From: Pseudoselenomonas ruminantium
Lineage (GTDB): Bacteria; Bacillota; Negativicutes; Selenomonadales; Selenomonadaceae
Assembly (NCBI RefSeq): GCF_900142515.1
Contig: NZ_FRBC01000004.1
Span: forward strand, 1-45,121
DNA: 45,121 nucleotides
Direction of reading: 5' to 3'
The notes under the pieces were generated by a model. That model saw only the letters and a list, made by a program, of their open reading frames with translations. It searched no databases and had not been told where the DNA came from. The position numbers were made by a program, and so were the translations under genes. This document shows positions 19,870 to 24,351 of this stretch, one piece after another. How positions within the stretch are numbered: the stretch's first letter is position 1; the number at the start of each line of letters is the position of its first letter.

Positions 19870-20477
19870 TATTTTTTCTCCTCTGGTTTCACATCACTGA
19901 TGCGCTGGGGCATGACCGCCCCCGCCGTCAGCATATACTGCAGGGCCGATTCACTGCTGATATCGAGATAGGTCACATCGCTCTTTTTGACAAAGAGGTT
20001 CGTACCGGAGGTCATATTAAGGCTCCATGGCACGAAAACGCAGACATAATCATCCCCGAGCTTGTCCTTCAAAGTCTGGGGCACATCGGCCATGATAAAG
20101 CCCAAGGCCTGGGACTGATGGAAAGGCACCAGCACCACATGGTCAAACATATTATTGGACTCAAACACCGCCGTAGACAAATGCTTGACGCTGTTATAGA
20201 TGAACTTGACCACGGGAATCTTGCCCAGCAGGGTTTCCCCGATATAGATCAAGCGGCGGGCCGCCCAATAGGTTGAAGCCCAGCCTGTCAGATAAATCAC
20301 CAGTAGCAGGGTAATCAGTCCCATACCCGGAAAATAGAACGGGAGGTGCTTGCCCAGCACCCCTTCCGTAAAGTTCAGCGTTTCCAGCACCACAAAGACC
20401 GTGATAGCCAAAGGCACGAGAATAATCAGGCCGTTGATAAAACGGCGGGAAATCCGCTTTGAGCAACTTTCCTTCAT
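19869..20477 (-). CDS. DUF502 family membrane protein
   Basis: 202 residues. Two hydrophobic segments, about 13-35 (FINGLIILVPLAITVFVVL) and 50-75 (GLITLLLVIYLTGW), followed by a soluble C-terminal region with the family stretch GETLLGKIPVVKFIYNSVKHL and VPFHQSQALGFI. DUF502 proteins are inner-membrane proteins of unknown role; in plants a relative takes part in signalling at membranes, which says little here. Overlaps era by four bases (ATGA) and recO by one, so translation is coupled within the operon. Confidence 0.88.
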   Translation of the reverse strand: MKESCSKRISRRFINGLIILVPLAITVFVVLETLNFTEGVLGKHLPFYFPGMGLITLLLVIYLTGWASTYWAARRLIYIGETLLGKIPVVKFIYNSVKHLSTAVFESNNMFDHVVLVPFHQSQALGFIMADVPQTLKDKLGDDYVCVFVPWSLNMTSGTNLFVKKSDVTYLDISSESALQYMLTAGAVMPQRISDVKPEEKK

Positions 20478-21373
20478 CGCTCGTCACCAAATCCGAAATT
20501 GCGCAGAATGCCATCGCGGTCGCGCCAGTCCTTCTTGACCTTTACCCAAAGGTCAAGAAAGACCTTGGAGCCTAAGAGGTTCTGGATATCCGTGCGGGCC
20601 AGGGCGCCGATTTCCTTGAGCATGGCACCTTTGGCACCAATCACAATGCCCTTCTGCGAGTCACGCTCTACATAGATGGTGGCCCGGATATAAACATCAT
20701 CATTGGGACGGGTGGTCATCTCATCCACATCCACAGCAATGGCATGGGGAATCTCGTCGCGGGTAAGCTGCAGGGCCTTCTCACGGATGAGTTCGGCTAC
20801 GATCAGGCGCTCTGGCTGGTCGGTGACCATATCCTCCGGATAATACTGCGGCCCTTCCGGCAAATATTTCTTGGCTTCCGTCAACAGGCTGTCGAGATTC
20901 ATTTCCTCTTTGGCCGAAATGGGCACCACACCAGCAAACTCATATTTGGATGTGTAGTTGGAAATGATGGGCAAAGCCTGTTCCCGATCGATCAGATCCA
21001 GCTTATTGACGACGAGGATAACTGGACGTTTCGTTGCCTGCAGGCGCTCCAGGATATAATGCTCACCAGGCCCCATCTTTTCCGTAGCATCCACCACAAA
21101 GAAGATGGCATCCACTTCACGCAGGGTGCCCTCAGCAGCCTTGACCATATACTCGCCCAGTTTATGCTTGGGCTTATGGATGCCCGGCGTATCGAGAAAG
21201 ACAATCTGCGCATCGGGCTGTGTCAGGATACACAGGATACGGTTGCGCGTGGTCTGGGGTTTGTCGCTCATAATTGCGATCTTCTGCCCAATCAGGGTGT
21301 TGATCAGTGTGGACTTGCCCACATTCGGTCGGCCAATAACGGCGATAAAGCCGGATTTCATCTTCTGCTCCAT
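20474..21373 (-). CDS. era: GTPase Era
   Basis: 299 residues. Ribosome-associated GTPase for 30S maturation, binding the 3' end of 16S rRNA. G1 GRPNVGKST, G2 QTTRNR, G3 DTPGI, G4 NKLD, G5 SAK are all present, followed by the C-terminal KH domain (IGAKGAMLKEIG ... DLWVKVKKDWR). Start chosen at MEQKMKSGF, behind AAAGAGG; an earlier in-frame Met overlaps ybeY without a ribosome binding site. Confidence 0.97.
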   Translation of the reverse strand: MEQKMKSGFIAVIGRPNVGKSTLINTLIGQKIAIMSDKPQTTRNRILCILTQPDAQIVFLDTPGIHKPKHKLGEYMVKAAEGTLREVDAIFFVVDATEKMGPGEHYILERLQATKRPVILVVNKLDLIDREQALPIISNYTSKYEFAGVVPISAKEEMNLDSLLTEAKKYLPEGPQYYPEDMVTDQPERLIVAELIREKALQLTRDEIPHAIAVDVDEMTTRPNDDVYIRATIYVERDSQKGIVIGAKGAMLKEIGALARTDIQNLLGSKVFLDLWVKVKKDWRDRDGILRNFGFGDER

Positions 21374-21402
21374 ATATGCCTCTTTCCTAAATCTCTTATC
21401 TT

Positions 21403-21867
21403 TCAATCTCTGCTGATGCCCAATTTATCCATAACAAAGCGTTGTTCCGCTTCCATCTCTTCACGTTCCTCATCTTCCATATGGTCATAGCCCAGAAGAT
21501 GCAGCATGCCGTGCACGGTCAGGAAAGCAACTTCCCGACGCACGCTATGACCGTAATCGGCAGCCTGTTCTTCGGCCCGTTCCAGGGAGATGATCAGATC
21601 GCCCAAAACATTCACTTCGCTGCCGCCCACTACTTCCGGCTCCTCGCTCTCATTGAACGCAAAGGAAATCACGTCCGTGGGGCGGTCAACGCCGCGATAT
21701 TCCCGATTGATCACATGAATGTGTTCGTTATCGGTCAGCGTCACGCTGACTTCGCTGTTTTCCACTCCATAAAGCTTGCCTACCGTTTCGATGGCCGTAC
21801 GGATATTTGCGATATATTCTTCCGGAACCTGTAACTCTTCCGGTTCGTTGCTGATGATGATTTCCAT
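21403..21867 (-). CDS. ybeY: endoribonuclease YbeY
   Basis: 154 residues. Zn-dependent single-strand endoribonuclease in 16S rRNA 3'-end maturation and ribosome quality control. Metal motif HGMLHLLGYDH with His119, His123 and His129; conserved REYRGVDRPTDVISF near 56-69. Start MEIIISNEPEE one base behind the phoH-like stop, with AGGAAAAG inside the end of that gene; a longer frame runs into the upstream gene and is not supported. Sits between the phoH-like gene and era as in most Firmicutes. Confidence 0.96.
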   Translation of the reverse strand: MEIIISNEPEELQVPEEYIANIRTAIETVGKLYGVENSEVSVTLTDNEHIHVINREYRGVDRPTDVISFAFNESEEPEVVGGSEVNVLGDLIISLERAEEQAADYGHSVRREVAFLTVHGMLHLLGYDHMEDEEREEMEAEQRFVMDKLGISRD

Positions 21868-21868
21868 G

Positions 21869-22873
21869 TTACTTTTCCTGTCTCGCCTTTTCTTTCTCTT
21901 TTTCGGCCTTGCGCTTCTCTTCATAAGCACCGTAAGCCTCGATAATGCGGGTGACGACTTCATGACGGATCACGTCCAGAGGTGCCAGCCGCACAATCCC
22001 TACGCCCTTGACATTTTCCAGCACCTTAGCCGCTTCCCTGAGGCCTGACGTTACCCCTCGTGGCAGATCTACCTGTCCCAGATCACCCGTAACCACCATA
22101 CGGGAACCAAAGCCCAGACGCGTCAGGAACATCTTCATCTGCTTGTCCGTGGTGTTCTGTGCCTCATCGAGGATGATGAAGGCATCTTCCAAGGTACGGC
22201 CGCGCATATAAGCCAGCGGCGCAATCTCGATAAAACCCTTGGCCATGAATTTCGTATAGGTGTCCTGCCCCAAAATATCCTGCAGGGCATCATAAAGCGG
22301 GCGCAGATAGGGATCTACCTTGTCCTGCAGATCTCCGGGCAAAAAGCCCAGGCGTTCCCCGGCTTCTACGGCCGGACGCGTCAGGATGATCTTGCGCACC
22401 TCGCGGTTACGCAGCGCCGCTACAGCCATCACCACGGCCAGATAGGTCTTGCCGGTACCAGCCGGACCGATGCCGAAGGTGATGGAATTGTGGCGGATGG
22501 TATCCAGATACCGCCGCTGCCCTAAAGTCTTCGGGCGCACATGACGGCCCCGGGCCGTAACGAGGATGGTATCACCGAACAGGGTATGCAATGCTTCGCC
22601 TTTGCCGCCCTTTACGAGTCCAATACCATAACGCACCTCGTGCATGGTGATGGTAGTTCCCTGCCGATAAAGATAGAGAAGCTCCTCCAGCACCTTGGCC
22701 GCCATCTCCACCTGAGCACCTTCCCCGAGGATTTCCACCTGAGTACCCCGGCTGATGAACTGGCAGTCAAACTCACTGCGGAACACCTGTAAAAATTCAT
22801 CGCCTTCACCCAAAAGAGCGAAGGCTTCATGATTGTCCTGAAAAATAATTTTCCGTTCTAATGCCTGCTGCAA
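21869..22873 (-). CDS. PhoH-like ATPase
   Basis: 334 residues. N-terminal KH-like part (to about 100), then a P-loop ATPase with Walker A GIGPAGTGKTYLAV near 134 and Walker B AFIILDEAQN near 235, and conserved TGDLGQVDLP near 265. PhoH/YbeZ proteins partner YbeY in RNA processing. The start codon appears to be TTG (GAGGTG nine bases upstream). The last 20 residues are almost all Lys/Glu/Arg. Second gene of the operon. Confidence 0.93.
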   Translation of the reverse strand: MQQALERKIIFQDNHEAFALLGEGDEFLQVFRSEFDCQFISRGTQVEILGEGAQVEMAAKVLEELLYLYRQGTTITMHEVRYGIGLVKGGKGEALHTLFGDTILVTARGRHVRPKTLGQRRYLDTIRHNSITFGIGPAGTGKTYLAVVMAVAALRNREVRKIILTRPAVEAGERLGFLPGDLQDKVDPYLRPLYDALQDILGQDTYTKFMAKGFIEIAPLAYMRGRTLEDAFIILDEAQNTTDKQMKMFLTRLGFGSRMVVTGDLGQVDLPRGVTSGLREAAKVLENVKGVGIVRLAPLDVIRHEVVTRIIEAYGAYEEKRKAEKEKEKARQEK

Positions 22874-22904: not shown

Positions 22905-23807
22905 TCAATCTGCGATATATTTCGCATTGTACTTTTCAATCATCTTTTCCGGCTTGTAGGATTCCTTGGCCTTACGCAGGCCCTCCTGCCCCATATCTTC
23001 CTCCCGGTTGATATAGGTCATGCCGCTCCATTCGTGCTCGATAAATCCCTGGTTAATGGCCGGATACGCCCCGCGGATATTGGGATCGGCTTTTTCTACA
23101 TGCACCACCACCGAGTCACTGTTGAGCTGTTCCCCGAAAGTAAAGGCGATAATCTTACCGTTCAGGCAGATTGCTCCCCCCTTGAGCTGAAAATAATCCC
23201 AATCCTCGAAAAGTTCCAGAATCGCATCCCGCTCCCAAGGGATAAAGACAGACTCAGGCATGGCCTCGATATGATCCGCATACCACTTCTCCAGCTCTGC
23301 TCTGCAGGCAGGCAGGATCTCTGGCGTGATTTCCTGATACTCAGCCTCAGGATAGAGTTTCCGGAACGCATTCAGGTGATTCTTCTTGGAATGCAATTTA
23401 CGCCCGGACAGGGTAATGAGCTTATCCGCCAGATAGACATAGTCGAAATTATCCCGATCAGCCTGAATGTCAAATTTCCCGGCGTACTTTTCAGCCAGGA
23501 AACCGGCAAAGGCTTTCTCAATCCCGGTAAAGTACAGCACCGTATCCTGCTCCGCAAAATAACTGCGCAGGACCTCCACGGCCTCTTCCCAACGGGACGG
23601 ATCGCAAACGGGCTGCAGCGCATAGAGCACCCCTTCCCACTCACAGGTCAGATAAAGGATGCCCTCCTGTTCTGCATGTTTTACATGATAGGGCTTGCGC
23701 CACATAAAGAGATTGGTGAAATTGAAATGAGAGTTCTCATAATACCCACTGCGATAATATTTATCGAGAAGATCTTTATCTTGTTTCGTTAGTTCTTTAA
23801 AATTAAT
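22905..23807 (-). CDS. DUF2156 protein with an apparent non-standard start codon
   Basis: About 300 residues; DUF2156 (C-terminal domain of phosphatidylglycerol lysyltransferase-like proteins, GNAT fold), exact role unknown. The first ATG (23705) gives 266 residues, but coding continues upstream in frame with family-like sequence (NFKELTKQDKDLLDKYY, then NSHFNFTNLF before MWRKPY). Between the in-frame stop TAG (23838) and that ATG there is no ATG, GTG or TTG. A strong AGGAGG at 23817-23822 is followed by CTG AAT ATC ATT; ATT at 23807 (nine bases) or ATC at 23810 (six) are the best-spaced candidates. Promoter upstream is strong. It heads the phoH-ybeY-era-recO operon, 31 bases before the phoH-like gene. 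Confidence 0.8.
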   Translation of the reverse strand: MNFKELTKQDKDLLDKYYRSGYYENSHFNFTNLFMWRKPYHVKHAEQEGILYLTCEWEGVLYALQPVCDPSRWEEAVEVLRSYFAEQDTVLYFTGIEKAFAGFLAEKYAGKFDIQADRDNFDYVYLADKLITLSGRKLHSKKNHLNAFRKLYPEAEYQEITPEILPACRAELEKWYADHIEAMPESVFIPWERDAILELFEDWDYFQLKGGAICLNGKIIAFTFGEQLNSDSVVVHVEKADPNIRGAYPAINQGFIEHEWSGMTYINREEDMGQEGLRKAKESYKPEKMIEKYNAKYIAD

Positions 23808-23846
23808 GATATTCAGCCTCCTATTGAAAAAAGCTCTCTATCATCA

Positions 23847-23876
23847 ATTATAACGCCATTGTTCGAATTTTGTCGA
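23847..23876 (-). promoter_or_regulatory. promoter of the DUF2156-phoH-ybeY-era-DUF502-recO operon
   Basis: Minus strand TCGACA (23876-23871), 18-nt spacer, TATAAT (23852-23847). The -35 lies in the small palindrome TTTTGTC-GATA-GACAAAA (23868-23885), which could be an operator or a weak hairpin behind dhaM. Confidence 0.75.
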
Positions 23877-23904
23877 TAGACAAAACTCCCCATCTGCGTT
23901 TCCA

Positions 23905-23930
23905 TGAGACAAAGAGCGTTCCTTGTCTCA
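23905..23930 (-). terminator. hairpin behind dhaM
   Basis: TGAGACAA and TTGTCTCA, 8-bp perfect stem with a 10-nt loop, 37 bases behind the dhaM stop. No T run on the minus strand, so a weak terminator at best. A second palindrome GTGACC-CT-GGTCAC overlaps the dhaM stop (23958-23971). Confidence 0.4.
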
Positions 23931-23967
23931 TTATAGCTGACCTGTCAACACTTGGCCGTGACCCTGG

Positions 23968-24351
23968 TCACGCAAGCTTCTTCTGGCCGCATGTTTCCTC
24001 GGCTGCTACCACCACTTCTTCAAGGGAGCCGCCATTGGCCGCTACCACAGCCGCCCGCATGGTGCCTTCCAAAAGCGGACAATCCGCCATGCGCACGGCA
24101 TCGTCCTTGAGGTTTTCCAGCACCAGTTCCGTGGTCATGATGGCGCTGCCCATATCCATGATCACTACTGCACCATCACGGCCGCAGACCAGTTCCACAG
24201 CCTCGCTGATTTTCTCATAGCTCGTACCCATGATGCCGTCTTCGAGGCCTCCTGCCACGGCAATCTGCACATTATGGGCCATCATCTCGGCCATTTCCTT
24301 GATACCTTCGGCAATCTTCACATTATGGGATACCACAACAATCCCTACCAA
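23968..24351 (-). CDS. dhaM: DhaM-like phosphotransfer protein (PTS EIIA-Man fold)
   Basis: 127 residues. Opens (M)VGIVVVSHNVKIAEGI with His9 as the expected phosphorylated histidine, and GLEDGIMGTSYEKI, matching the short Gram-positive-type DhaM that relays phosphate from HPr to the ADP of DhaL in dihydroxyacetone kinase. The start is TTG: AAGGAGG precedes it by seven bases, while the ATG six codons upstream contains that Shine-Dalgarno. DhaK and DhaL are not adjacent and not in this window, so it either serves kinases encoded elsewhere or acts as a lone regulatory EIIA. It follows purL by 86 bases. Confidence 0.87.
   Translation of the reverse strand: MVGIVVVSHNVKIAEGIKEMAEMMAHNVQIAVAGGLEDGIMGTSYEKISEAVELVCGRDGAVVIMDMGSAIMTTELVLENLKDDAVRMADCPLLEGTMRAAVVAANGGSLEEVVVAAEETCGQKKLA

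Follow-up and report, generated by a model that had tools for sequence, protein, structure and literature searches.

Where does translation begin in a gene whose reading frame offers none of the usual start codons near its expected beginning? The question is raised by a DUF2156 gene on the minus strand of the window, that is, the whole 45,121-nucleotide stretch of Pseudoselenomonas ruminantium DNA that was analysed (NZ_FRBC01000004.1, positions 1 to 45,121). From the preceding in-frame stop the minus strand reads TAG (23840-23838) AGA GCT TTT TTC AAT AGG AGG CTG AAT ATC (23810-23808) ATT (23807-23805) AAT TTT AAA, and the frame ends at a TGA (22905-22907). After the TAG at 23838-23840, ATG, GTG and TTG are absent until the ATG at 23705, which lies 34 codons past the ATT. 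ATT (AUU) is a very rare start codon. The features discussed here are collected in Table 1.

Table 1. Features in and around the DUF2156 gene, in window coordinates.
Feature	Position	Strand	Basis or remark
DUF2156 / LPG_synthase_C (PF09924) gene	22905..23807	-	300 codons + stop, read from ATT
Proposed start codon ATT	23805..23807	-	9 nt after AGGAGG; column in relatives mostly ATT/ATA/ATC, sometimes ATG
Rival start codon ATC	23808..23810	-	6 nt after AGGAGG; column variable in relatives: AGT, ACC, GCC, AAA, ACT
Shine-Dalgarno (SD) AGGAGG	23817..23822	-	duplex with anti-SD tail -12.3
CTG adjoining the SD, spacing 0	23814..23816	-	NTG in many relatives; taken as extended SD, not start
In-frame stop TAG upstream	23838..23840	-	sequence
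First in-frame ATG, not the start	23703..23705	-	within conserved NLFMWR motif
Short upstream ORF, ATG, 7 codons in all, TAG overlaps SD	23821..23844	-	
phoH, next gene, TTG start	21869..22873	-	PF02562
ybeY ORF, true start probably internal	21403..21963	-	TIGR00043 match at residues 45-184 of 186
era	20474..21376	-	NF000908
Promoter-like TCGACA-18-TATAAT	23847..23876	-	consensus scan only
TTGACA-7 nt-TATAAT element	23930..23948	-	upstream of DUF2156 in 39/156 class loci

A sequence-only reading of this DNA had proposed that family-like coding continues 34 codons upstream of the first ATG, in a frame without ATG, GTG or TTG after the preceding stop, and that the start is the ATC or the ATT properly spaced from AGGAGG. 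The frame was found to be as described, with spacings of 6 nt for ATC, 9 nt for ATT and 0 for CTG. Alignment with DUF2156 homologs, which that reading had suggested as a check, runs from the ATT and through the disputed codons, and the closest named relatives are Selenomonas ruminantium records, the best of them at 89% identity. A non-AUG start is thus upheld, and the codon columns described below favour ATT over ATC.

The protein matches a single Pfam family, PF09924, over residues 26-296 of 301 (E 1.6e-59; 201.9 bits against a gathering cut-off of 27.5). The AlphaFold prediction for the 300-residue chain read from the ATT is a single compact model, with a mean pLDDT of 95.9. Its first 34 residues are predicted to form a short strand and helices 8-19 and 30-35, with block mean pLDDT values of 94-97. 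The short strand, helix 8-19 and most of helix 30-35 precede the internal Met, so a start at 23705 would remove them. That Met also lies inside the conserved motif NFTNLFMWR and therefore is not the N-terminus; homologs do not begin there. By alignment and predicted structure, the 34 codons from the ATT to the internal Met are coding, and a start at 23705, inside both the NLFMWR motif and the fold, was ruled out. A sequencing error at the start was also rejected, as the same state is found in many independent genomes of this and other genera. The sequence-only reading had named ATG at the start column of relatives as a reason to abandon the idea; among the class loci ATG is not the rule.

MprF, the phosphatidylglycerol lysyltransferase, carries an N-terminal membrane flippase domain. 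No such membrane part was found in this 300-residue protein by the Pfam search or in the model. By Foldseek the fold is closest to 2hqy (TM score 0.94), followed by 4v36 and 5vrv (MprF/LPG synthase domains; about 0.66) and FemX (about 0.6), and profile comparison to 2HQY gives an E-value of 3.4e-97. By homology, the product is predicted to be a tandem-GNAT transferase of acetyltransferase-like type. Related proteins are described in PMC10700544, where H. pylori HPB8_1270 is called a DUF2156 protein with two GNAT domains. The H. pylori member is reported there as an acetyltransferase that most likely modifies lysines of RNase J, and BT_3689 (PDB 2HQY) as holding acetyl-CoA. BT_3689 shares family and fold with the protein described here.

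How widely is the odd start shared? DUF2156 homologs occur in 348 of 380 Negativicutes genomes and in 219 of 391 genomes in the class of a clostridial MAG. At first 195 loci were read (168 distinct); with the outgroup added, the set comprised 234 distinct loci, 157 from the class Negativicutes and 77 from an outgroup belonging mostly to the class of the clostridial MAG. The class sample was a chosen one: it took in all 22 genomes of the window's genus and otherwise mostly one or two per genus plus named records, the loci outside the genus being picked among the matches listed and exact duplicates dropped. Start codons of the form AUH or ATH are those in which H is A, C or U (T).

The 157 class loci divide into 129 of ATH type, 27 in which one of the four codons before a conserved Phe is canonical, and a single locus, L160, that fits neither description. 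Of the 129 ATH loci, 54, drawn from 11 coded families and the named records, contain no ATG, GTG or TTG all the way to the stop, and every one of these 54 has an SD (score 11 or more) serving an ATH codon. The extreme case is L099, in which a lone AAA separates the stop from the ATT. In the other 75 ATH loci some canonical codon lies upstream; comparison of the SDs favours the ATH codon in 73 of these, gives a tie in one and goes against it in one.

The first scoring was asymmetric, in that an upstream ATG, GTG or TTG counted as canonical in the outgroup while an NTG at the SD was counted as ATH in the class. The scoring was repeated blind, with a single rule for both groups. When the codon with the best SD and spacing was taken at every locus, ATH was chosen in 137/157 class loci against 11/77 outgroup loci, the latter figure being the error rate of the SD rule. 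When any canonical codon with a fair SD was accepted, the counts were 125/157 and 1/77. Judged from these comparisons, an AUH start (ATT, ATA or ATC) is kept by most sampled Negativicutes behind a strong ribosome-binding site.

The odd start is not indispensable in the class, because 22 of the 150 scored class loci are canonical and seven coded families (f6, f13, f18, f19, f21, f22 and f30), sampled with one or two loci each, show none but canonical loci. One genome, G118, carries two DUF2156 copies, one with an ATG start and one of ATC type (L112 and L336), which offers a natural comparison within a single cell.

A separate case is found on a small clostridial branch. The same-genome pairs L070/L230 and L071/L231, together with L247, from three genomes in all, have only CTG after a GGGAGG-type SD; their relatives L228, L239, L242 and L331 start with ATG. 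This branch has apparently made an independent move to a non-canonical start.

Which codon is used can be approached by comparing columns of the alignment. At the ATT column the 157 class loci have ATT 65 times, ATA 35, TTA 23, ATC 18, ATG 9, TTG 3 and other codons in four; in 19 of the 23 loci with TTA, an ATT stands one codon upstream. A start at ATC 23810 in this species, one codon ahead of the ATT, would suit the leader too, both spacings being permissible, and of the 108 ATH-class loci whose ATT column holds an ATH, 56 have ATT or ATC one codon before it as well. The codon there is not ATH in the remaining 52, and the spacing in infC, discussed below, is mostly about 9 nt. The ATC column is less constrained across the class than the ATT column, and therefore ATT 23805-23807 is, on the comparative evidence, the best start; ATC is a minor rival and an unlikely one.

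A start at the CTG (23816), three codons upstream of the ATT, would lengthen the protein by three codons at an unusual SD spacing. In this column the class loci have GTG 31 times, ATG 20, GGG 20, CTG 11 and TTG 6, besides others, so that this position, which lies at the SD or overlaps it, is an NTG (ATG, GTG, TTG or CTG) in 68/157. Its spacing from the SD would be about 0 or negative, its first base varies, GGG and other codons occur in its place, and the codons from there to the ATH are poorly conserved. The 54 loci without any ATG, GTG or TTG up to the stop, L099 among them, also speak against it, and in infC a TG at the comparable place belongs to GGAGGTGA. The frequent TG after the SD in DUF2156 leaders is consistent with an extended SD, as in infC of the class and in sigR. 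The NTG at the SD was accordingly treated as an unusable start, and initiation there is very improbable for this gene; where the codon is ATG, GTG or TTG, it may be used.

Ribosomes might also enter from the mini-ORF at 23844-23821 by coupling or frameshifting, in place of AUH initiation. In the window and in L002 the stop of the mini-ORF falls on the SD. None of the other leaders printed contains the mini-ORF, and these have an AUH start all the same; entry by this route is hardly to be believed.

The median anti-SD duplex value is -11.8 for ATH loci (n=128), -10.0 for canonical class loci (n=22) and -9.4 for canonical outgroup loci (n=72), with Mann-Whitney p values for ATH of 2e-4 against the canonical class loci and 7.5e-10 against the canonical outgroup. 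The difference weakens once relatedness is taken into account (median p 0.07 for independent pairs on the tree). The spacing histogram is biased because the ATH codon nearest to 8 nt was chosen.

Controls were provided by other genes of the same genomes. An AUU-type start with a similar SD layout is found in infC in all 28 readable Negativicutes genomes (ATT in 24, ATA in 4; 30 were fetched, and L222 and L225 were unread), as in the DUF2156 gene. The SD of infC in the class, including the window's own genome, is mostly (A)GGAGGTG-like, with GGAGG mostly at about 9 nt. In the window's genome infC is a separate gene (G000:C13:103206-103706). A canonical codon stands two codons before the ATT in L211 (ATG) and L221 (GTG); a GTG overlaps the SD in L196, L217 and L223; and in several others a canonical codon lies far upstream or downstream. 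The era gene of the same genomes has canonical starts: 23 of 30 loci were read, and in 22 of the 23 a canonical codon lies no more than 16 codons from the G1 motif, L319 and L325 being counted through GTGs inside the domain only. An ATG lies further up in L305, L325 and L319.

The string by itself means nothing, since AGGAGG-N7-9-ATH occurs at 180 sites in the window's genome against 212 in a reversed control. A partial blind scan of that one genome covered about 95 of the 180 pattern sites (30 loci and 65 sites), and it yielded only two convincing long frames that lack a canonical start, DUF2156 and infC. Four other frames were not convincing: L364 (82 codons), L372 (a hydrolase-like piece), and L383 and L393 (both spurious-looking). 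The first canonical codon comes more than 25 codons late in 37/151 DUF2156 frames against 24/276 others. This control says little, since many of the late-starting frames among the others appear to be antisense or spurious.

The history of the start was reconstructed by parsimony, as a two-state count on a single FastTree tree built without the first 12 alignment columns. The scored loci were 128 ATH and 22 canonical in the class, with 72 canonical and 3 CTG in the outgroup. L012, L089, L140, L164, L160, L123 and L147 had been set aside before the 128/22 count, L115, at first taken as canonical, was counted as ATH on account of its SD spacing, and the outgroup loci L069 and L072 were left unscored. 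Rooting misplaced four loci with respect to the division between class and outgroup. The tree requires 16 changes, three gains and 13 losses, and each loss concerns one tip or a clade of at most three loci. The pattern suggests that the AUH start arose within Negativicutes, by one to three gains from an ancestor with a canonical start, followed by about 13 scattered losses. The odd start is thus easily and repeatedly lost, but it still predominates.

To our knowledge, genes starting with AUU, AUA or AUC have come to light one at a time. Experimental precedents in Staphylococcus aureus are given in PMC13009471: cvfC1 (AUU) and ccpN (AUA) have an extended SD and yield about 10% of the AUG reporter level in RPMI medium, and their starts, shown by Ribo-Ret, are conserved among staphylococci for cvfC1 and between S. 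aureus and B. subtilis for ccpN. The same paper adds citZ of S. aureus. The DUF2156 gene resembles cvfC1 and ccpN in joining a conserved non-canonical start to an extended SD; it differs in being another gene, spread over a whole class and known from sequence alone, whereas Ribo-Ret and reporters stand behind the staphylococcal cases. In Streptomyces, sigR starts with GTC behind a very strong ribosome-binding site, AGGAGGTG, and its translation is repressed by IF3; the gene had been misannotated upstream, and its start is reported for Streptomyces, with no evidence for it reported in other actinobacterial genera (PMC5472188). It shares with DUF2156 the non-canonical start and strong ribosome-binding site, but the codon is GTC, not AUH, and the product a sigma factor. 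For E. coli pcnB an AUU start, like that of the DUF2156 gene, is reported or proposed in PMC1780047 and PMC13009471.

Searches found no paper joining DUF2156 with "start codon", Negativicutes with "non-canonical start", or Selenomonas with AUU and "start codon", subscription literature lying mostly outside the search.

The locus has three marks in common with such genes: no usable ATG, GTG or TTG, a strong SD at normal spacing, and an odd start conserved in relatives. We give a probability of roughly 0.7 to the reading that the gene starts at the ATT and belongs with the non-AUG genes discriminated by IF3 (infC, pcnB, sigR, cvfC1 and ccpN), with an output that is low or dependent on IF3. DUF2156 is most likely a further gene of this type, distinguished by its class-wide breadth and by the gene itself. 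The strong, often extended SD at normal spacing would hold the 30S subunit, while the mismatched AUU, AUA or AUC codon, against which IF3 discriminates, would limit commitment. Translation would then reach only part of the rate seen with AUG and would rise when there is little IF3 activity for the 30S subunits present, and output of the transferase would track the state of translation initiation the way IF3 itself does. This dependence on the IF3/30S ratio follows, if IF3 discriminates against the DUF2156 start as we infer. An odd start kept behind a strong ribosome-binding site, as in infC, suggests that translation is deliberately held back. The infC gene differs in that its product is IF3 and it is autoregulated; the DUF2156 product is a predicted tandem-GNAT transferase (PF09924) and not IF3, so autoregulation in the infC sense would not apply.

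The simplest alternative is that output is set at a fixed low level. AUH would be kept since the protein must be scarce, with discrimination by IF3 as the means, and nothing would be sensed. The comparative evidence fits this equally well, and the weaker SDs of the canonical class loci (-10.0 against -11.8) are what would be expected if the level is held. A low set point has been argued for pcnB. The S. aureus cvfC1 AUU start shows no response to medium (PMC13009471). Against a fixed set point, a strong SD with a weak start codon is an odd route where a weak SD with ATG would suffice, and infC, with the same layout, is known to be regulated through it, as stated in PMC5472188. A fixed set point is a real possibility, at a little under even odds.

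A stronger version of regulation by IF3 is doubtful. The AUH start would act as an IF3-gated sensor, and the transferase, co-induced with IF3 when IF3 is short of 30S subunits, would acetyl- or aminoacyl-modify a component of translation or RNA turnover. If this were true, infC and the DUF2156 gene would be the two conserved members of a small IF3 regulon in Negativicutes.

The odd starts of DUF2156 and infC, the canonical outgroup and the natural losses form a comparative system for asking whether IF3 also controls genes besides its own. Gene finders limited to ATG, GTG and TTG would be expected to misplace the N-terminus, either truncating the fold by its opening strand and helices or extending the protein by three spurious residues.

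The sequence-only reading had further placed the gene at the head of a ribosome-biogenesis operon. In the window phoH, ybeY and era do follow, as it said; the weight that it gave to the operon did not stand. Across downstream stretches of about 0.6-3 kb, phoH was found in 19 of the 168 distinct loci, within about 210 nt in 15 of them, and 7 more loci were too short to tell. A phoH-ybeY-era operon as the general reason for the odd start was ruled out on this count, the start being much more widespread than this arrangement of genes.

Several elements lie upstream of the gene. All 22 loci of the window's genus carry a TTGACA-7 nt-TATAAT element, which has only two sites in the whole genome. It is promoter-like with the wrong spacing of 7 nt, and could be either an operator specific to this gene or a promoter of an unusual kind. 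By eye, the window has at about 23847-23935 some 80 extra bases relative to L002, placed between two copies of TATAAT and containing a GAGACAA...TTGTCTC inverted repeat. A further inverted repeat, GTGACCAGGGTCAC, lies at 23958-23971 on the minus strand and overlaps the end of the upstream EIIA-man gene. We take it to be reminiscent of CRP/FNR-type sites, and by eye it is partly kept in relatives of the genus, with 5 or 6 central bases.
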